NCBI RefSeq assembly: GCF_900104785.1
Contig: NZ_LT629733.1
Location: 714,501 to 778,500, forward strand
Length of the DNA: 64,000 nucleotides
Direction: 5' to 3'
Origin: Formosa sp. Hel1_31_208
GTDB taxonomy: Bacteria > Bacteroidota > Bacteroidia > Flavobacteriales > Flavobacteriaceae
Below are positions 17,182-28,497 of this stretch, piece after piece. The first letter of the stretch is position 1; every line of letters starts with the position of its first letter. The notes below the pieces were generated by a model. It saw only the letters and a program-made list of their open reading frames with translations. It ran no database searches and had not been told where the DNA came from. Both the position numbers and the translations under genes were made by a program.

Positions 17182-20100
17182 ATGTTATCTCATATTATAA
17201 AATTTAGCCTAAGGAATAAATTTATTATTCTGTTATTTACTCTATTTGTCATCGGTTTCGGATTGTATTCGCTATCAAAAATTCCTATTGGTGCTGTTCC
17301 AGATGTTACCAATAATCAAGTTCAGGTAATTACCACATCACGTAACCTTTCAACACAGGATATGGAACAGTTTATTACCTATCCTGTAGAATTAGAGATG
17401 GCGAATCTTCCTGGAGTGGAAGAAATTCGTTCGGTGTCTAAATTTGGATTATCGGTAGTGACTATAGTATTCAATGATGATATTGGGACTTACTTACCAC
17501 GACAACTTATTGCAGAAAAAATTAAATCGGCTTCAGAGAACATACCAGATGGTTTTGGAACTCCAGAAATGGGGCCAATCACTACGGGTCTTGGAGAAAT
17601 TTACCAATACATTCTAGATGTAGAACCAGAATATAAAAATGAATATACAGCACAAGATCTGCGTACGATTCAAGATTGGATTGTAAAACGTCAATTATCA
17701 GGAATTCCTGGAGTGGTAGAAGTCAATACTTGGGGTGGTTTCTTAAAACAATATGAAGTCGCAATAAATACCCAAAAGCTTAATGCGATGCACATTTCTG
17801 CCCATGACGTTTTTAACGCACTTGAGACTAATAATAGTATCACAGGTGGTGGTTACATAGAAAAGGTGAACCAAGCCTATTTTATAAGAGGAGATGGCTT
17901 AGTCACTAGCTTGGAAGATATTGAAAATATTGTTGTAAAAAACACTTCGGGTATTCCTATTTATATCAAAGATGTAGCTAAGGTAGGTTTCGGTAATGCA
18001 CTGCGATTTGGAGCAATCACAGGAAATGGGGAAGGTGAAAAAGTGTTGGGTCAGGTGATGATGCTGAAAGGCGCAAATTCAAAAGAAGTTATTGATGCCG
18101 TAAAAGATCGGGTTGCCACAATTTCAAAATCATTGCCTAAAGGGGTTTACATTAATGCCTTTCTAGATCGTAGTGAGTTAATAGGAAGAACAACGTTTAC
18201 AGTAACTGAAAATCTTGTTTTAGGATGTCTTATAGTGGTCTTTGTTGTGGTATTACTGTTAGGTAATTGGCGTTCGGGTTTAGTGGTGGCATCTGTGATT
18301 CCTTTGTGTTTGTTGTTTGCATTGTCCTTGATGTACATCTTTGGAGTGGATGCGAACCTTATGAGTTTAGGCGCAATTGATTTCGGAATAATTATCGATG
18401 GTGCTGTTATTATTGTTGAATTTATAGCATTTAGAATCACAGAGAAACAAGGAGAGTTTTCTAAATTGAAGGCCAATGAAATCCAATCTGTTAAAGATGA
18501 AATTACTTTCCTTGGTGCTTCAAAAATGATGAATTCAGCTATTTTTGGTCAGCTTATTATTCTTATTGTCTTTATCCCTATTCTTTCATTAAGTGGTGTT
18601 GAGGGTAAAATGTTTAAACCGATGGCCCTAACCTTCAGTTTTGCGTTGATTGGAGCCATGATTTTTTGTTTTACTTATGTTCCAGTGGCAGCTTCTTTAT
18701 TTCTTAAACCATCAAAGGCCTCAAAAAATAATATTTCTATACGTTTAATGCGTTGGCTTAATAGATTGTACGAACCAACAATTCATTGGGCACTACAAAG
18801 TAAAAAGTTGGTATTGAGTGTCGCTATCGCACTACTAGCTGTGTCAGCCTATTTGTTTGCAAATATGGGAGGAGAGTTTGTCCCCACTTTAGATGAAGGC
18901 GATTTTGTAATCCAACCCGTCCTCAGAACAGGAACTTCCTTGAGTGAAACTGTAGAGATTACCACAAAAATAGAAAGGATCTTATTGGATAACTTCCCAG
19001 AAGTAAAACAGGTAGTTACCAGAATAGGTGCAGCAGAAGTACCTACAGACCCGATGTCTATGGAAGAGAGTGATGTTATTATCGTATTGAAGCCGAAAAA
19101 AGAGTGGGTTTCGGCTTCTACTAAAGATGAATTAGCAGATAAATTTAAGGAGGCATTGACAATAATACCAGGGATGGAAGTAGAGTTTACTCAACCTATT
19201 GAGATGCGTTTTAATGAACTAATTACAGGAGTTAGAGCAGATATTGCAATCAAAATATTTGGAGAAAATCTAGACATACTTTCTAAAAAGGGATCTGAAA
19301 TAAAAGCGTTGATTCAAAATGTTGAAGGAGCCGCAGATATTTCTGTAGAAAAAATTGATGGTTTACCCCAAATGAGCGTAAAGTATAATCGAGCGAAGGT
19401 AGCTCGTTATGGATTAAATATTGAAGACCTCAACAATATGTTGTCTATGGGGTTTGCTGGACGAACCGTGGGTAGCGTTTTTGAAGGGGAAAAGCGTTTC
19501 GATTTGGTTGTAAGATTAGATGCGTCCAAACGACGGGATATTAATAATATTAAAAACCTCTATGTGGATCTACCAAATGGAGGTAAGGTTCCTTTGAGCG
19601 AATTAGCAGAAATTACTTACCAAAAAGGCGCTGCTAAAATTTCACGAGATGATACAAGAAGACGTATTGTCGTTGGAATTAACGTAAGAAATCGAGATTT
19701 AGAATCTGTTGTTGCTGATGTTCAAAACCTTATCGATACTAATGTTAAATTACCTGTTGGGTATACCATTACGTATGGAGGACAATTTGAGAACCTACAA
19801 AATGCGAAATCACGCTTATTAATTGCTGTGCCAATTGCTCTCATTCTCATATTTTTAATGCTCTACTTTGCATTTAATTCCATTAAAGACGCCCTTTTAA
19901 TTTACTCTGCAATTCCGTTAGCTGCAGTAGGAGGGATATTATTTCTTTGGATACGCGACATGCCTTTTAGTATTTCAGCAGGAGTTGGTTTTATTGCACT
20001 TTTTGGGATTGCCGTACTCAATGGTATTGTGCTTATTGAACATTTTAAAGAATTAAAACAAGAAGGAATTGAAGACATGGAAACGCTTATTAAACAAGGG

Positions 20101-21513
20101 ACTAAAGATAGATTACGTGCCGTCTTATTAACTGCAGCGGCAGCAGCTCTTGGTTTTCTGCCAATGGCTATCTCGACGAATGCAGGAGCAGAGGTTCAAA
20201 GGCCATTGGCTACAGTGGTTATAGGTGGTTTGGTTACGGCTACTTTACTGACTTTGATTGTACTCCCTGTATTGTATTCCTACTTCAATAGTACTAAAAA
20301 GAAATCCTTCAAATTTAGGAAAAATACACGTTTTGGCATTATCGTATTGATGAGTTTATATTCGTCAATCTCTTTTAGTCAGGAGAAATCAGTAATACTT
20401 GGCGAATTAATAACAATAGCCGTCGACAACAACGCTGGGCTTAAGGCGAATAAATTGAAGGTTAATCAATCTGATGTGTTAATTAATACGGCTTTTGATT
20501 TTGATAAAACCGAAGTTTATTATTCTTATGATGAGAATAATTTAGCCTTCAATAATCAACCTATTCGTGTTTTTGGAATACAACAAGATTTTAAATTTCC
20601 AACGGTTTATTTTGCTGGTAAAAGGTTGAATTCCGCAAACTATGATCTAGAATTATCAAACTATGCAATAAAAGAAAAAGTATTAAAAAGAAAGGTGACC
20701 TCCAATTATTATGAATACTTGCATGCCCTAGAAAAAGAATACATTTATAAACGTTTAGATAGTTTATATCAAAATTTTGCAACAATTGCTAAAAGACGTT
20801 TTGAATTAGGAGAAACTAATTATTTGGAGAAAATCACTGCGCAGTCGAAACAAAAACAAATAAATCTCAATTTATCAAAAGCGCAACAAGAGCTTGATGT
20901 GGCTTTTACACAATTGATGGCTGTCGTTCAAAGTGAAGATACACTAATCATTGAAAAAGAGCCGCTGACAAAGATTCCTTTAGAATCAATTAGTATAAAT
21001 AGTAGCCCTGAAATACAATATTTTAAGAATAAAATGTCCCTATTCCAAGCTAAACGTAAGTTTGAGAAACAACAATTATTACCAGACATTAGTCTTAATT
21101 ATTTCCAAGGGACTAATTCAGGACTCAACACAAATTTGACTGGTTATCAATTTGGATTGAAGATTCCATTACTTTTTAATGCACAGTCCTCTCGCATCAA
21201 AGCTTCAAGAATTGCGCAAGATATTGCTGAAGAGGAATCACATAATTTTGAAATTATTTTAAATACTAAATATCAAGAACTACAATCTGAATTAATACAA
21301 TATGAAGAAGCTTTAGCATATTTTGAAAACGAAGGTGCTTCGCTCGCTGATGAAATTCTAAAAACAGCTAATAGCAGTTTTAAAAATGGAGAAATTGATT
21401 TCTACCAATATATTATAAGTGTTGAAAATGCTTATGAAATACAACTCGACCATCTTCAACATCTCAATAGTTACAATCAAACTATTATTAAACTTAATTA
21501 TTTAACCTTTTAA
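17182..21513 (+). CDS. CzcA/CusA-type heavy-metal RND pump fused to TolC-like channel
   Basis: A 1443-aa fusion. Residues 1 to about 1040 are a heavy-metal-efflux RND transporter: N-terminal IPIGAVPDVTNNQVQV, the TM4 proton-relay line DFGIIIDGAVIIVE (about 399-412; the spacing of D, D and E fits CzcA Asp402, Asp408 and Glu415), and GGEFVPTLDEGDFVIQP. Near residues 1049-1070 there is a second signal-peptide-like segment (FGIIVLMSLYSSISFSQEK), followed by a TolC/OEP-like outer-membrane channel domain with coiled-coil repeats to the end. Together with the adaptor encoded next, one operon supplies all three parts of the trans-envelope pump. Likely substrates are Zn, Co, Cd, Ni or Cu. Confidence 0.92.
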   Translation: MLSHIIKFSLRNKFIILLFTLFVIGFGLYSLSKIPIGAVPDVTNNQVQVITTSRNLSTQDMEQFITYPVELEMANLPGVEEIRSVSKFGLSVVTIVFNDDIGTYLPRQLIAEKIKSASENIPDGFGTPEMGPITTGLGEIYQYILDVEPEYKNEYTAQDLRTIQDWIVKRQLSGIPGVVEVNTWGGFLKQYEVAINTQKLNAMHISAHDVFNALETNNSITGGGYIEKVNQAYFIRGDGLVTSLEDIENIVVKNTSGIPIYIKDVAKVGFGNALRFGAITGNGEGEKVLGQVMMLKGANSKEVIDAVKDRVATISKSLPKGVYINAFLDRSELIGRTTFTVTENLVLGCLIVVFVVVLLLGNWRSGLVVASVIPLCLLFALSLMYIFGVDANLMSLGAIDFGIIIDGAVIIVEFIAFRITEKQGEFSKLKANEIQSVKDEITFLGASKMMNSAIFGQLIILIVFIPILSLSGVEGKMFKPMALTFSFALIGAMIFCFTYVPVAASLFLKPSKASKNNISIRLMRWLNRLYEPTIHWALQSKKLVLSVAIALLAVSAYLFANMGGEFVPTLDEGDFVIQPVLRTGTSLSETVEITTKIERILLDNFPEVKQVVTRIGAAEVPTDPMSMEESDVIIVLKPKKEWVSASTKDELADKFKEALTIIPGMEVEFTQPIEMRFNELITGVRADIAIKIFGENLDILSKKGSEIKALIQNVEGAADISVEKIDGLPQMSVKYNRAKVARYGLNIEDLNNMLSMGFAGRTVGSVFEGEKRFDLVVRLDASKRRDINNIKNLYVDLPNGGKVPLSELAEITYQKGAAKISRDDTRRRIVVGINVRNRDLESVVADVQNLIDTNVKLPVGYTITYGGQFENLQNAKSRLLIAVPIALILIFLMLYFAFNSIKDALLIYSAIPLAAVGGILFLWIRDMPFSISAGVGFIALFGIAVLNGIVLIEHFKELKQEGIEDMETLIKQGTKDRLRAVLLTAAAAALGFLPMAISTNAGAEVQRPLATVVIGGLVTATLLTLIVLPVLYSYFNSTKKKSFKFRKNTRFGIIVLMSLYSSISFSQEKSVILGELITIAVDNNAGLKANKLKVNQSDVLINTAFDFDKTEVYYSYDENNLAFNNQPIRVFGIQQDFKFPTVYFAGKRLNSANYDLELSNYAIKEKVLKRKVTSNYYEYLHALEKEYIYKRLDSLYQNFATIAKRRFELGETNYLEKITAQSKQKQINLNLSKAQQELDVAFTQLMAVVQSEDTLIIEKEPLTKIPLESISINSSPEIQYFKNKMSLFQAKRKFEKQQLLPDISLNYFQGTNSGLNTNLTGYQFGLKIPLLFNAQSSRIKASRIAQDIAEEESHNFEIILNTKYQELQSELIQYEEALAYFENEGASLADEILKTANSSFKNGEIDFYQYIISVENAYEIQLDHLQHLNSYNQTIIKLNYLTF

Positions 21514-22723: not shown

Positions 22724-22739
22724 TTTAAGTATACTTAAA
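22724..22739. promoter_or_regulatory. Perfect 16-bp palindrome, candidate MntR/DtxR operator
   Basis: TTTAAGTATACTTAAA is its own reverse complement. It sits across the expected transcription start, 21 bases before the ATG of the DtxR/MntR-family gene. Known MntR/DtxR-family operators are AT-rich inverted repeats of similar size (TTTAGG-type half sites), so autoregulation by the adjacent protein is likely, with metal-bound repressor blocking the operon. Confidence 0.65.
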
Positions 22740-22760: not shown

Positions 22761-23417
22761 ATGTCAGTAGCTATTGAAAACTTTGTAAAAGCAATTTATA
22801 ACAACGATAAACATGATATTAAAGACACCAAACCTGGCAATATTGCGAAACAACTTGGTATTTCTAATGCAGCGGCCACTGATATGGCTAAAAAGTTGGC
22901 TCTAAAAGAACTGTTGCATTATGAAAAATATCAAAAATTGCAGCTTACCGAAAAAGGGACTAAGATGGCACTCAATGTTGTAAGAAAGCATCGACTTTGG
23001 GAAGCTTTTTTATTCAAAATGTTTGATATGTCGTTGCATGATATTCATCGTGAAGCGGAACTTTTAGAACATCAAACCTCAGACTTATTAGCAGAAAAGA
23101 TAAGTAATTATTTAGGTCATCCAAAGTTTGATCCTCATGGAGACCCTATTCCCAATGCTTACGGTGAAATTACGACTATAGATACCTCAATATCACTTTC
23201 CGAAGCAAAAGAAGGAAAAACCTATATCATTGCTCGATTAATGAGTAATGATAAAGAGTTCTTTGATTTCTGTGCACAAAATGGAATTAAATACAGAAAT
23301 GCATTAAAGGTTTCAAAGCAATTTACCGCAAATAAAATGACTCAAATAACTATTGGAACGAATACAATTGTATTGAATGAAGATTTCACTAAAATCATTT
23401 ATGTTGATGAAAACTAA
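22761..23417 (+). CDS. Metal-dependent transcriptional regulator, DtxR/MntR family
   Basis: A 218-aa repressor. Residues 1-65 are a winged helix (PGNIAKQLGISNAAATDMAK, wing LQLTEKGTKMAL), residues 65-140 the dimerisation and metal-binding domain with HREAELLEH (ExxEH, as in the MntR metal site) and a basic, His-containing RKHRLWEAFLFK, and residues about 150-218 an SH3-like FeoA-type domain. Such proteins bind Mn(II) or Fe(II) and repress metal importers. It heads the operon that encodes the Tro-type ABC importer, and a perfect palindrome lies just before it. Confidence 0.92.
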   Translation: MSVAIENFVKAIYNNDKHDIKDTKPGNIAKQLGISNAAATDMAKKLALKELLHYEKYQKLQLTEKGTKMALNVVRKHRLWEAFLFKMFDMSLHDIHREAELLEHQTSDLLAEKISNYLGHPKFDPHGDPIPNAYGEITTIDTSISLSEAKEGKTYIIARLMSNDKEFFDFCAQNGIKYRNALKVSKQFTANKMTQITIGTNTIVLNEDFTKIIYVDEN

Positions 23418-24216
23418 AAACCTCAATCTACTGAGTTTCTTTTTTCTCTTCTGCTCAACAGCATTATTTGCCCAGAATGATAATAACCAAGAAACTCCGT
23501 CTGAACCATTGGTTACAGATAGGCCTGATGCCACCGAGTCGCCAACAACAATAGTACCCGGTTTTATTCAGGTGGAAACAGGAGGGGCTTATGAGAGCTT
23601 TAAGGATAATATTATTAAGTTTGAAACTTATACTTATAACACTACTTTGGTGCGATTAGGACTACTTGATAATCTCGAATTACGTTTGGGATGGAATTTT
23701 ACTGAAGGCAGAAATTCGATAAATAGCAATCTATGGAGTGATGTCACAAGTGGCTTCAGTCCATTATTGCTCGGGACTAAAATTGCAGTTACTGAAGAAA
23801 AAGGATGGCGACCACAAATAGGAGTATTAGGACATGTCTATCTACCGTTTACTGCAGGTGAAGACTATAAGCCAGAAACGACAGGCGTTGATTTTATTTT
23901 TGCATTTGCACATACCTTAAGTGAACGATCAAGTCTAGGATATAACCTTGGAGCCAGATGGCAAGATGATTCTCCTGAAGCATCATATATATACTCAATG
24001 TCTTACGGATATAGTCTTACAGATACATTGGGAACATATATAGAGATTTACGGAAATGTGCCTGAAAATAGTAAAGCCAATCACCTGTGGGATGCTGGCC
24101 TTACCTACTTAATATCTAATAATGTGCAATTAGATGCCACAGTTGGTTCTGGTATTACAGCAGATCAAGATTTATTACTTAGTGCAGGTGTGAGCTTTAG
24201 ATTACCAACTAAATAA
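23407..24216 (+). CDS. Outer-membrane-type transporter (phenol_MetA_deg-like)
   Basis: A 269-aa beta-rich protein. ATG 23407 gives a signal peptide (MKTKNLNLLSFFFLFCSTAL, cleaved after AQ) and overlaps the regulator gene by 11 bases; a nearby ATG at 23401 is also possible. The mature start PLVTDRPDATESPTTIVPGF is the hallmark of the MetA-pathway/phenol-degradation-like transporter family (PF13557), which are small predicted outer-membrane barrels. The many alternating aromatic and polar strands agree. Its place between the metal regulator and the ABC importer suggests a role in passage of metal or a small chelate through the outer membrane; this is inference. Confidence 0.75.
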   Translation: MKTKNLNLLSFFFLFCSTALFAQNDNNQETPSEPLVTDRPDATESPTTIVPGFIQVETGGAYESFKDNIIKFETYTYNTTLVRLGLLDNLELRLGWNFTEGRNSINSNLWSDVTSGFSPLLLGTKIAVTEEKGWRPQIGVLGHVYLPFTAGEDYKPETTGVDFIFAFAHTLSERSSLGYNLGARWQDDSPEASYIYSMSYGYSLTDTLGTYIEIYGNVPENSKANHLWDAGLTYLISNNVQLDATVGSGITADQDLLLSAGVSFRLPTK

Positions 24217-24223
24217 AAACAGA

Positions 24224-25141
24224 ATGAAAACTATAAAACAAATAATATTAGTACTAATCATAACCACTCTTTTTGGCTGTAAAACAGACCAACAAACCAA
24301 TGGCAAATTAAACGTTGTTACGACCACCACTATGATTAGTGATTTGGTTGAAAATATTGGTGGAGATTATATTAATATCAATGGCTTGATGGGTAGTGGT
24401 GTCGATCCACATTTATACAAAGCTAGTGAAGGTGATGTGTCCAAATTAGTAAATGCAGATATCATTTTCTATAATGGTTTGCACCTTGAAGGAAAACTTG
24501 TTGAGGTTTTTGAAAAGATGGGAAGTAAAACTAAAACCCAAATAGCCTTAGGTGAAGAACTAGATAAATCTACTTTAATAGGTTCTGATTATTTTGCATC
24601 TAACTATGATCCGCACGTATGGTTTGATATCAATTATTACAGACAATTTGCAACTAAGGTAACCAAAGTACTTGCTGAAAAAGATCCTAAAAATAAAGAA
24701 GCCTACTATGCTAACGAGAGGGAATACATTGCAAAATTATTTCTATTAGAAAGTGACATTAAGGCGGTTATTGAAACGCTCCCAAAAGAAAAACGCATCT
24801 TGGTTACAGCTCACGATGCATTTAATTACTTCGGAAAAGCATATGATTTTGAGGTCTTAGGATTACAAGGATTATCCACAGCCACTGAGGCAGGAGTTCA
24901 GGATGTGCAAAAACTCTCAGCCTTTATTATTGAAAGAGACATTAAAGCTATTTTTGTTGAAAGTTCTGTGCCTAAACGAACCATAGAAGCTTTGCAGGCG
25001 GCAGTAAAATCAAAAGGCCACAACGTCAGTATTGGTGGTACCTTATATTCAGATGCGCTTGGAACATTAGGAACCGAAGAAGGCACCTATATTGGTATGT
25101 TTGAATATAATGTCAATACTATTGTAAACGCGTTAAAATGA
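24224..25141 (+). CDS. Metal ABC transporter substrate-binding lipoprotein
   Basis: A 305-aa cluster A-I (TroA/ZnuA/MntC) binding protein. The lipobox is TLFGC (Cys19). Metal ligands are seen as His in [11 protein letters not shown] (about 67), His in DPHVWFD (about 129), the His/Glu region [14 protein letters not shown] (about 195) and the final acid near the C-terminus (GTLYSDALG). There is no His-rich loop as in ZnuA, which favours Mn or Fe over Zn. It overlaps the ATPase gene by four bases (ATGA). Confidence 0.92.
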
Positions 25142-25878
25142 TGAAAAACAAAATAGCAGTTCAAGTTGACGATTTAACAGTAGCTTATAATTATAAGCCA
25201 GTATTATGGGATATTGATCTTGAAATTCCAGAAGGTGTTCTGATGGCCATTGTTGGCCCTAATGGCGCCGGTAAATCCACACTTATTAAATCTATTTTGG
25301 GAATTTTAAAACCTATAGCAGGTAGTGTTTCTATCTACGGAAAGTCCTACGAAAAACAACGTTCTTTAGTGGCTTATGTTCCGCAAAAAGGAAGTGTTGA
25401 TTGGGATTTCCCTACCACAGCTCTTGATGTTGTAACAATGGGTACCTATGGAAGTTTAGGATGGATTAAACGCCCTAGACAAAAACAAAAGAAAGCGGCT
25501 TTAGAGGCCTTAGAAAAAGTAGGAATGCTTCCATTTAAACATCGACAAATTAGTCAATTGTCAGGAGGTCAACAACAACGCATCTTTTTGGCTAGAGCAC
25601 TGGTGCAAGAGGCTGCGATATATTTTATGGATGAGCCATTTCAAGGGGTTGATGCGACTACTGAAATTGCCATTATCAATATTTTAAAAGAACTGCGAAA
25701 GGCAGGAAAAACTGTTGTAGTAGTGCATCATGATTTACAAACGGTGCCAGAATACTTTGATTGGGTCACCTTTTTGAATGTCAAAAAAATTGCAACAGGT
25801 CCAGTTAAGGATATCTTTAATGATGATAACCTGACGAAAACCTATGGTATTAATTATAAAGTAAGTATTCAGGAATAA
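25138..25878 (+). CDS. Metal ABC transporter ATP-binding protein
   Basis: A 246-aa ABC ATPase of the Mn/Zn/Fe importer. Walker A is GPNGAGKST (about 40-48), the signature LSGGQQQR (about 141-148), Walker B IYFMDEPF (about 161-168) and the switch His in [27 protein letters not shown] is typical of the TroB/MntB/ZnuC group. ATGA overlap with the binding protein gene and TAATG overlap with the first permease gene show a tightly coupled operon. Confidence 0.95.
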
Positions 25879-27005
25879 TGGGTATTCAAGAGTATTTTTC
25901 TTTGGTGTTTTCAGATTATACCTTACGCACCATCACACTAGGTACTGCTATTCTAGGAGCTGTAACAGGCATGCTGGGTAGTTTCGCTGTATTGCGAAAA
26001 CAAAGCCTCCTTGGTGATGCCATCTCTCATGCCGCACTACCAGGCATAGCTATTGCTTTCTTAATTACAGGAGCAAAAGACAGTAATACCTTGCTTGTTG
26101 GTGCGCTAGTAAGTGGATTGATTGGTACGTTCTGGATTAGAGGCATTGTTTCTAAAACACACTTAAAATCGGATACCGCATTAGGGTTAATTTTGTCCTT
26201 GTTTTTTGGCTTCGGAATGCTCTTGCTTACTTTTATTCAAAAACAACCTAATGCTAATCAGGCTGGATTGGATAAATATTTGTTCGGACAAGCAGCTACG
26301 TTAGTAGAACGTGATGTATGGATGATGGCCATTGTAACTGGGATGTGCTTGTTTGTATTACTCTTATTTTGGAAAGAATTTAAAATTCTATTGTTCGATA
26401 AAGACTATGCCAAAACCCTTGGGTTTAACACCAAAGCTATTGACGTTTTAATCACTAGTTTTATAGTTTTGGCTATCGTATTAGGACTGCAAACTGTTGG
26501 TGTTGTACTTATGAGCGCTATGCTATTAGCGCCTGCAGCTGCGGCAAGACAATGGACCAATAGTTTGGCTAAAATGGTTTTTTTAGCTGCTGTTTTTGGT
26601 GCCTTTTCGGGGGTTTTTGGAACAGCAATTAGTGCGAGCCAGAATAATTTATCTACAGGACCAGTAATTGTGATTGTCGCTGCTGTTTTTGTAGTGTTTT
26701 CATTTGTCTTTTCACCAAGCCGAGGTTTATTATTTAAACAGATTCGATTTATTAAAAATAGACGCGACCTAGAGTTACATAAAACCTTAGCTTTTATGTA
26801 TCATATTGCAAAGACTCACGAAAATATTTCACATCCACATGAGATCAAAATTTTGAATAATTTTCAAGGATTCACTAGAGGGACACTTAAAAAACTGGTA
26901 GAGAATAACTTCGTCACACTAAAAGGAACGACTTGGAGTTTAACTCAAGAAGGATTTAATTCGGCTTCAAATTTATATAATCAACTAACAAAGAACGATG
27001 AGTAA
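25878..27005 (+). CDS. Metal ABC transporter permease with C-terminal winged-helix-like tail
   Basis: A 375-aa protein. Residues 1 to about 285 are an ABC-3 (TroC/ZnuB) permease with about eight membrane helices and the motif QSLLGDAISHAALPGIAIA. Standard permeases stop there, but this one continues about 85 residues in the cytosol. The tail (from about 290: RRDLELHKTLAFMYHIAKTH, then FTRGTLKKLVENNFV and WSLTQEGFNSASN) looks like a winged helix of the DtxR type, including the LT-EG wing also found in the operon's regulator. Overlaps: one base with the ATPase, eight bases with the second permease. Confidence 0.9.
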   Translation: MGIQEYFSLVFSDYTLRTITLGTAILGAVTGMLGSFAVLRKQSLLGDAISHAALPGIAIAFLITGAKDSNTLLVGALVSGLIGTFWIRGIVSKTHLKSDTALGLILSLFFGFGMLLLTFIQKQPNANQAGLDKYLFGQAATLVERDVWMMAIVTGMCLFVLLLFWKEFKILLFDKDYAKTLGFNTKAIDVLITSFIVLAIVLGLQTVGVVLMSAMLLAPAAAARQWTNSLAKMVFLAAVFGAFSGVFGTAISASQNNLSTGPVIVIVAAVFVVFSFVFSPSRGLLFKQIRFIKNRRDLELHKTLAFMYHIAKTHENISHPHEIKILNNFQGFTRGTLKKLVENNFVTLKGTTWSLTQEGFNSASNLYNQLTKNDE

Positions 27006-28158
27006 CACACAACTTGAAATACAACTTATTGCAAGTATGGTTGCTATAGCTTGTGCCATTCCTGGAACATTTTTAGTACTTCGAAAAATGGCTATGATTA
27101 GTGATGCTATTAGCCATTCCATTTTGCCTGGTATTGTTGTTGGATTTTTTATTACTCAAGATTTAAATTCACCACTATTGATTGTATTGGCTGCAATTAC
27201 TGGAGTCATTACGGTAGTTTTAGTGGAGTATATTCAGAAAACGGGATTAGTAAAAGAAGATACTGCAATAGGCTTGGTGTTTCCTGTGCTCTTTAGTATA
27301 GGTGTTATTATGATTGCAAAAAATGCCAATGATGTTCATTTAGATATTGATGCTGTGCTGCTTGGTGAATTAGCATTTGCACCTTTTGATCGTTTGCTTA
27401 TTTGGGGAGTCGACATTGGTCCGAAATCACTTTGGATTATTGGCAGTATTCTGATGATTACAATCATTTTACTGATTGCCTTTTTTAAGGAATTAAAACT
27501 GAGTACTTTCGATAAAGGGCTTGCAGCCTCTTTAGGGTTTTCACCAACATTGATTCATTATGGGCTCATGAGCGTTTCATCTATAACAACAGTTGGAGCA
27601 TTTGATGCCGTTGGCGCTATTCTTGTTGTTGCCCTTATGATTGCACCTGCCGCTGCCGCTTATTTGTTAACTACAGATTTAAAGAAAATGCTATTGCTTT
27701 CCATTCTTTTTGGGGTGTTTAGCGCTATTTCTGGATATTGGCTCGCGCATTGGTTAGATGCCTCCATTGCTGGTTCTATAACTACCATGCTGGGTTTATT
27801 GTTTTTAGTGGTGTATTTATTTGCGCCTAGTAAAGGAATTATAGCTGTGATGTATAGAGAGAGACAACAACGTACCGAAGTATCACTGCTTACATTTTTA
27901 TTACATCTTAAAAACCATGATGACGAAAGTGAACGTCATGTCAATCATTTAAATGAGCATATCAATTGGCAAAAAGTACGTTCAAAAACAGTTCTAGATT
28001 TAGCTCTAAAAAACAACATGATTCATATTGATCACGACGTTGTTTCATTAACTCAAAAAGGAGATGAATTTACCTCAAAAGCTATTGATTATATTATAAC
28101 TAATGAAGATACTCAAATAGAAGACATGAAAGATGATTTCTTCTTATTTAGAGGTTAA
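26998..28158 (+). CDS. Second metal ABC transporter permease with C-terminal winged-helix-like tail
   Basis: A 386-aa ABC-3 (TroD-like) permease with the motif MAMISDAISHSILPGIVVG and about eight helices up to residue 284. It also has a soluble tail of about 100 residues (MYRERQQRTEVSLLTFLLHL, then RSKTVLDLALKNNMI and VSLTQKGDEFTSKAI), again winged-helix-like, ending in an acidic DDFFLFRG. It probably pairs with the preceding permease as a heterodimer. It is the last gene of the operon; the next gene is convergent. Confidence 0.9.
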   Translation: MSNTQLEIQLIASMVAIACAIPGTFLVLRKMAMISDAISHSILPGIVVGFFITQDLNSPLLIVLAAITGVITVVLVEYIQKTGLVKEDTAIGLVFPVLFSIGVIMIAKNANDVHLDIDAVLLGELAFAPFDRLLIWGVDIGPKSLWIIGSILMITIILLIAFFKELKLSTFDKGLAASLGFSPTLIHYGLMSVSSITTVGAFDAVGAILVVALMIAPAAAAYLLTTDLKKMLLLSILFGVFSAISGYWLAHWLDASIAGSITTMLGLLFLVVYLFAPSKGIIAVMYRERQQRTEVSLLTFLLHLKNHDDESERHVNHLNEHINWQKVRSKTVLDLALKNNMIHIDHDVVSLTQKGDEFTSKAIDYIITNEDTQIEDMKDDFFLFRG

Positions 28159-28173
28159 TCAATTCCTCAGTTT

Positions 28174-28497
28174 TTATCTCGCACAGTTGACACAAAACAA
28201 GCTTTCTGGCCTAATAAGTATTCTGCCTAACGGAATCACTTGTTTGCATTTTAAACAGATACCGAAGTCGTCATCATTAATTTTAGAGAGCACAATTTTT
28301 AACGTGTTGAGTTTGCTTTCTGCTTGCCGTAAAGAGGCTTCATTTATAGTTTTATTATTGATGGCATCCATTCTGCTCACGCGACCAATAGCATCATTAG
28401 GAGCAATGGGTTTGCTAAGCTCTTTGTAATGTTCTATAGATGTTTCGGTTTTTAATATTTCATCTAGAATCGTAATTTTTATTTGTGCTTTGTCCAT
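28174..28497 (-). CDS. TraR/DksA C4-type zinc finger protein
   Basis: A 107-aa protein with an N-terminal helical hairpin and a C-terminal C4 zinc finger, CLKCKQVIPLGRI followed by CVNC, as in the TraR/DksA superfamily. DksA-like proteins bind in the RNA polymerase secondary channel and alter promoter use. The coiled-coil tip DxxDA motif of true DksA is replaced by RMDAINN, and the protein is shorter than DksA (151 aa in E. coli), so it is better called TraR/DksA-like. It converges on the second permease gene with 15 bases between. Confidence 0.8.
   Translation of the reverse strand: MDKAQIKITILDEILKTETSIEHYKELSKPIAPNDAIGRVSRMDAINNKTINEASLRQAESKLNTLKIVLSKINDDDFGICLKCKQVIPLGRILIRPESLFCVNCAR

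Follow-up and report, generated by a model that had tools for sequence, protein, structure and literature searches.

Winged-helix tails with apparent DtxR kinship on both permeases of a bacterial ABC-3 metal importer

Why do both permeases of one metal importer end in tails that resemble part of the repressor encoded in the same operon? The window (the whole stretch of 64,000 nucleotides that was analysed, from Formosa sp. Hel1_31_208, whose genome is 3.1 Mb on one contig) contains an importer operon with two permeases, called A and B here (Table 1). Both belong to the ABC-3 family (PF00950; 247.4 and 174 bits, cut-off 20.1). The first-pass annotation had drawn attention to the two frames of 375 and 386 aa and their extra C-terminal tails, and these are present: PF00950 extends as far as residue 278 in A and 275 in B, and ~92 and ~106 residues follow the last permease motif. 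Its statement that mntR lies three genes upstream of permease A needs correction, as mntR is four upstream with three genes intervening. Because no Pfam or NCBIfam model matches either tail of the window above cut-off, routine annotation overlooks them; P0122, a relative from the B profile search, has a precomputed winged-helix label, PF25213. The nearest relative of permease A among the matches listed is from Psychroserpens (93% identity). The importer is patchy among the same-family genomes listed, with strong matches in 5 (the window's included), weak matches only in 3 and none in 20.

Two neighbouring regions were inspected by eye. Shortly upstream of the operon lies a 1443-aa ORF (17182-21513), the N-terminal part of which is CusA/CzcA-type RND pump-like and the C-terminal part of which resembles a TolC-type outer-membrane factor. 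Convergent with permease B, the minus strand at 28174-28497 encodes a small DksA/TraR-like protein with paired CxxC motifs; the plus-strand ORF that overlaps its gene (28133-28429) is probably spurious.

Table 1. Positions of the importer operon, the permease tails and their motifs in the window.
Feature	Position	Strand	Evidence or remark
Operator-like palindrome TTTAAGN4CTTAAA, TTTAAGTATACTTAAA	22724..22739	+	Upstream of mntR
Free MntR/DtxR regulator	22761..23417	+	PF01325 and PF02742 above cut-off, FeoA slightly under
Phenol_MetA_deg-like protein	23377-24216		Between mntR and the lipoprotein gene
Metal-binding lipoprotein	24224..25141	+	PF01297
Importer ATPase subunit	25138..25878	+	PF00005; top NCBIfam PRK15056 (manganese/iron), under cut-off
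Permease A, 375 aa	25878..27005	+	ABC-3 match at residues 14-278, followed by the tail
Permease A tail (winged helix), residues 284-375	26727..27002	+	AlphaFold2, profile and structure matches
A-tail histidine motif H314 ... H319-P-H321	26817..26840	+	Stretch from helix 1 to helix 2
Permease B, 386 aa	26998..28158	+	ABC-3 match at residues 10-275, followed by the tail
Permease B tail (winged helix), residues 281-386	27838..28155	+	AlphaFold2 pLDDT 86.9, profile and structure matches
B-tail motif H303-x3-H307 ... E312 ... H317-x3-H321-x2-W324	27904..27969	+	Helix 1 end to helix 2
B C-terminal extension ending FFLFRG	28105..28155	+	Ending kept in at least 97% of 80 close rows (best 80 of at least 580 loci)

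The predicted fold class of both tails is clearly the winged helix, as had been proposed from the sequence alone. For tail A (AlphaFold2, alignment n = 45) the best model has a mean pLDDT of 81.9, the other four reach 57.1-66.9, and a long helix is followed by two short ones, two strands and a further helix. The five models of tail B (alignment n = 47) range from 81.9 to 86.9, and the best has the winged-helix order and a C-terminal helix. Structure matches of both tails are mostly winged-helix proteins; B. subtilis and E. coli MntR appear among those of tail A and E. coli MntR among those of tail B, with MarR and PadR winged helices level with or ahead of MntR. As the scores are tied across many winged-helix families, structure leaves the family undecided.

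Kinship was examined by sequence comparison. The LTQ(E/K)G wing motifs on which a relation to the operon's own MntR had been proposed were located from residue 354 of A (SLTQEG) and 350 of B (SLTQKG), and LQLTEKG starts at residue 60 of the MntR-like protein. Compared directly in a three-sequence set without composition correction, tails A and B agree at 29% over 76 aa (E 3e-5), and their similarity to the window's MntR is marginal, the best value being that of tail B (E 0.027). The profiles support the proposed relation where direct similarity does so only marginally. They were built from 23 tails of each permease, 15 DtxR-fused wings and 18 MntR wings (L065, with a bare B, was excluded; L038 and L039 are near-copies). 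The A-tail profile matches the wings of DtxR-fused permeases at 98.4% over 88 columns, nearly the whole tail length, the free MntR wings at 94.6% and the B tail at 90.4%; the B-tail profile matches DtxR-fused wings at 95.9% and MntR wings at 56.8%, and all reversed-profile controls (n = 12) gave at most 0.9%. Searched against 2301 ORFs, the A-tail HMM reached 7e-11 on a DtxR-fused permease, 2e-5 on MntR and 0.21 on the best unrelated ORF, while the B-tail HMM hit MntR at 0.0033 (an end-truncated 99-aa ORF), a DtxR-fused permease at 0.038 and an unrelated ORF at 3.6. Judged from these sequence comparisons, the DtxR kinship is firm for tail A and moderate for tail B.

The tails correspond to the wing and lack the sensing half. 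PF02742, the DtxR metal-binding/dimerisation domain, has no match in the window's permeases A or B and was found in 0/13 A and 0/10 B members of the alignments, window included. All seven long-form permeases that were scanned contain it (77.8-97.6 bits, cut-off 27), and the same HRLWE-type stretch can be seen by eye in the eight remaining long forms. The whole genome of the window has a single PF02742 match, that of MntR. PF01325 does not match the tails A and B of the window up to E 1; in the DtxR-fused long permeases it is also under its cut-off of 26, being listed in 3 of the 7 scanned with 12.8-13.5 bits. FeoA is above cut-off in the DtxR-fused permease of L041 and under it in that of L042.

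A survey of the phylum, taken as Bacteroidota, covered 296 genomes and gave an ABC-3 match in 147 of them. ORFs were called in 39 loci from 38 genomes, hand-picked for long permease frames among the matches listed; the genomes left out include G104, G022, G049, G076, G111, G034, G158, G278, G270, G167, G058 and G008, and L061 was excluded because its permease is broken at a contig end and its stretch has no B. Two classes of permease pair emerged from this set. Wing-only A is accompanied by wing-tailed B in 23/23 loci, window included. The longer, DtxR-bearing permease (421-496 aa) is found in 15 loci, and DtxR-fused A is accompanied by bare B in all 10 genomes from which both were fetched, in one of them on separate contigs. 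A separate MntR gene lies near the DtxR-fused permease in L043, L044, L052-L056 and L058, so that two DtxR-type proteins are encoded next to each other. Two wing-tailed B permeases, P0194 and P0218, are labelled Deltaproteobacteria and Thermoflexales, which would be either an occurrence of the variant beyond Bacteroidota or mis-binned contigs.

The permease cores were placed in a maximum-likelihood tree, in which L070 was entered twice and for which the software flagged meeting long branches and an unsettled bootstrap. In this tree, wing-only A forms one clade (100/98) among the DtxR-fused A rows and wing-tailed B one clade (96/93) adjoining the bare B rows. As each wing-tailed set is one clade, the pattern points to a few events rather than many independent ones; the change counts for 'bare' and 'DtxR' may be inflated, since L042 was tagged bare despite its PF02742. 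The single DtxR-fused permeases L041, L042 and L070 fall outside the A/B pair, so the fused DtxR is plausibly the older state, as far as a tree that is only midpoint-drawn can tell.

Conservation was followed in a set of close relatives, namely the best 80 of at least 580 confirmed loci in named genomes, ranked by similarity to permease A with its tail. Retention in relatives, a check that the first-pass annotation had called for, is complete in these best 80: the A tail is kept in 80/80 and the B tail in 79/79 complete B genes, one B being incomplete. The annotation had named as refuting its view an unrelated fold, or tails that match no DtxR-type domain and vary freely among relatives. Neither is seen: the predicted fold is a winged helix, the DtxR kinship is firm for A and moderate for B, and relatives retain both tails. 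Over the same best 80 of at least 580 loci, the A tail is more variable than the permease core (mean entropy 0.69 vs 0.23), and the B tail comes close to its core in conservation (0.47 vs 0.35).

Within the tails, the histidines are conspicuously conserved. H314, H319 and H321 of A occur in 81/81 close rows and H303, H307, H317 and H321 of B in 80/80, window included in both (best 80 of at least 580 loci). Across the 23 phylum-wide loci, A keeps H314 and H321 in 23/23, and B keeps H303, H307 and W324 in 23/23, E312 and H321 in 22/23 and H317 in 19/23. All six B residues are present in 120/120 of the best 120 of 8000 scored proteins of the B profile search, a sample biased to the closest matches. 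In the model of tail A, the three histidines (model residues 31, 36 and 38) fall in the stretch that joins helix 1 to the next helix; in that of tail B, H303 is close to where helix 1 ends, H307 immediately follows that helix, and H317 and H321 are part of the next one. The conserved histidines around the helix 1-helix 2 turn suggest a candidate metal site; invariant histidines can also have a structural role or make protein contacts. The ends of the tails differ among loci. The A tail stops directly past the wing in 3/23 loci (L066, L067 and L072), and the FFLFRG-ending extension of B, possibly a docking peptide, is found among the 23 phylum-wide rows only in the 5 same-family rows.

Among the best 80 of at least 580 loci (L073-L152), two MntR types with different upstream palindromes alternate beside the same importer, which amounts to a natural regulator swap: 35 loci have the window's type, 40 another type and 5 none in the fetched stretch. 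The palindrome at 22724, present as the first-pass annotation had reported, recurs as TTTAAGN4CTTAAA upstream of the window-type mntR in 34/35 of these loci and upstream of the other type in 0/40; by eye, TTTAGAN4TCTAAA was seen in several of the 12 type-2 stretches inspected. With regulator type read within the fetched stretches, up to ~6 kb per side, so that a second MntR elsewhere is possible, we compared tail similarity given core similarity between loci of the same and of different type. The residual difference is -0.0033 for the A tail (75 loci, 995/1000 label shuffles as high) and 0.0003 for the B tail (74 loci, 370/1000 label shuffles); A tails in same-type loci are, if anything, slightly less alike than across types. 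The tails had been considered as partners of the 22724 palindrome, and this candidacy was lowered because tail likeness is independent of regulator type. Free MntR together with its operator suffices to account for transcriptional control.

These results bear on the proposal that the tails are tethered or proteolytically released DNA-binding regulators in the manner of Chlamydia YtgR, which was the functional suggestion of the first-pass annotation. The fold and the DtxR kinship agree with it, cleavage of YtgR from YtgC has been described (PMC5599777 and PMC7755916), and tail A is as basic as the MntR wing (pI 9.8 and 9.7). Against it, tail B is acidic (pI 5.6), PF02742 is absent from the tails, the genome already has a complete MntR, and the tails are insensitive to operator and regulator type. 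The recognition helix of the tails also has no special conservation, in contrast to that of free MntR: recognition-helix and whole-domain entropies are 2.03/2.10 for A, 2.19/1.89 for B, 2.27/2.24 for fused DtxR wings and 1.26/1.54 for free MntR, which is less variable there than over the rest of the domain, in sets that differ in taxa. As the wings of the DtxR-fused relatives in the phylum are equally variable at this helix, this argument is weakened and does not separate the classes. The lost sensor, the recognition helix and the indifference to MntR/operator systems together disfavour the Chlamydia-like reading, which we regard as unlikely. The comparison with YtgC-YtgR remains apt as regards descent, full DtxR fusions being present in the phylum; the part that concerned release and DNA binding is not supported.

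Two other explanations need to be considered beside it. In the main rival explanation, the tails do no more than dock or assemble: they would contact the ATPase, contact each other or anchor MntR, the histidines would be structural and no metal would be sensed. Histidine and hydrophobic positions are conserved together and the B ending, near-invariant in close relatives (best 80 of at least 580 loci), is docking-peptide-like, both of which speak for such a role. Against it, both tails of this metal importer have, in the same region, several near-invariant histidines, more than a generic wing needs, and the tail histidines are not shared by the 15 DtxR-fused wings. We consider this explanation possible but less likely than not. 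A functionless vestige of an old DtxR fusion would fit the missing sensor domain and the greater variability of the A tail relative to its core. It is very improbable in view of the retention of both tails in the close relatives, a set chosen by permease A similarity, and of the 23/23 phylum-wide loci in which both subunits keep tails with invariant residues.

We favour, at a probability of about one half, the reading that the tails are domesticated DtxR wings which now serve the importer as cytosolic modules for regulation or docking, possibly with a response to metal, and which are no longer transcription factors. A DtxR-type repressor formerly fused to the permease, as in the YtgC-YtgR arrangement, would be their source, its DNA-binding half being either their ancestor or their relative by common descent. 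In one lineage, permease A has the wing domain only, and permease B bears a wing as well. With a wing on each, the A/B pair offers two cytosolic winged helices. These would lie under the membrane close to the ATPases and may associate as a pair or bind to the ATPase, most likely without any present role as transcription factors, and transcriptional control would be left to the separate MntR. Metal in the cytosol may be sensed by the near-invariant histidines at the turn from helix 1 to helix 2, and transport may be gated in this way. A more specific version, in which a repressor wing that lost its sensor now sits on both importer halves with a new histidine metal site and forms a heterodimeric gate acting as a transinhibition domain, is one that we put forward tentatively and consider more doubtful than not.

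Permease-DtxR fusions as such are already known, having been reported from 11 phyla (PMC5599777; PMC7755916). As far as our literature search shows, what is new here is the wing-only tail on both permeases with a histidine signature of its own; the search, which covered titles and abstract openings and few subscription journals, returned no account of wing-only tails on both permeases. Among the accounts found, the Chlamydia protein is the only permease-repressor fusion with an experimental study. The occurrence of a wing without the sensing half on both permeases in several families provides a natural series of full repressor, wing only and bare permease, useful for asking how a gene regulator turns into a transporter part. 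If the histidines bind metal, the tails would represent feedback at the post-translational level for ABC-3 metal importers.

The known systems resemble the importer described here to different degrees. In YtgC-YtgR of Chlamydia trachomatis, too, an ABC-type metal permease bears a domain of DtxR kinship at its C-terminus, within a metal-importer operon; the likeness drawn here is one of arrangement. YtgR has retained the metal-coordinating residues conserved in DtxR and is released from YtgC by cleavage (PMC5599777), whereas here the wing stands alone, on both permeases, alongside a separate complete MntR. The DtxR-fused ABC-3 permeases (for example L041, L043, L052 and L070) belong to the same permease family and their wing aligns with the A tail, but they retain PF02742 and their partner permease is bare wherever it was fetched. 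Free MntR/DtxR regulators share the winged-helix fold and the profile matches given above; unlike the tails, they have no permease part, contain PF02742 and conserve the recognition helix. The transinhibited ABC importers MetNI and ModABC also carry additional cytosolic domains, and we compare them only for the way they work: C-terminal regulatory domains on their ATPases gate transport in response to substrate (PMC10710835), whereas the tails described here are placed on the permeases.
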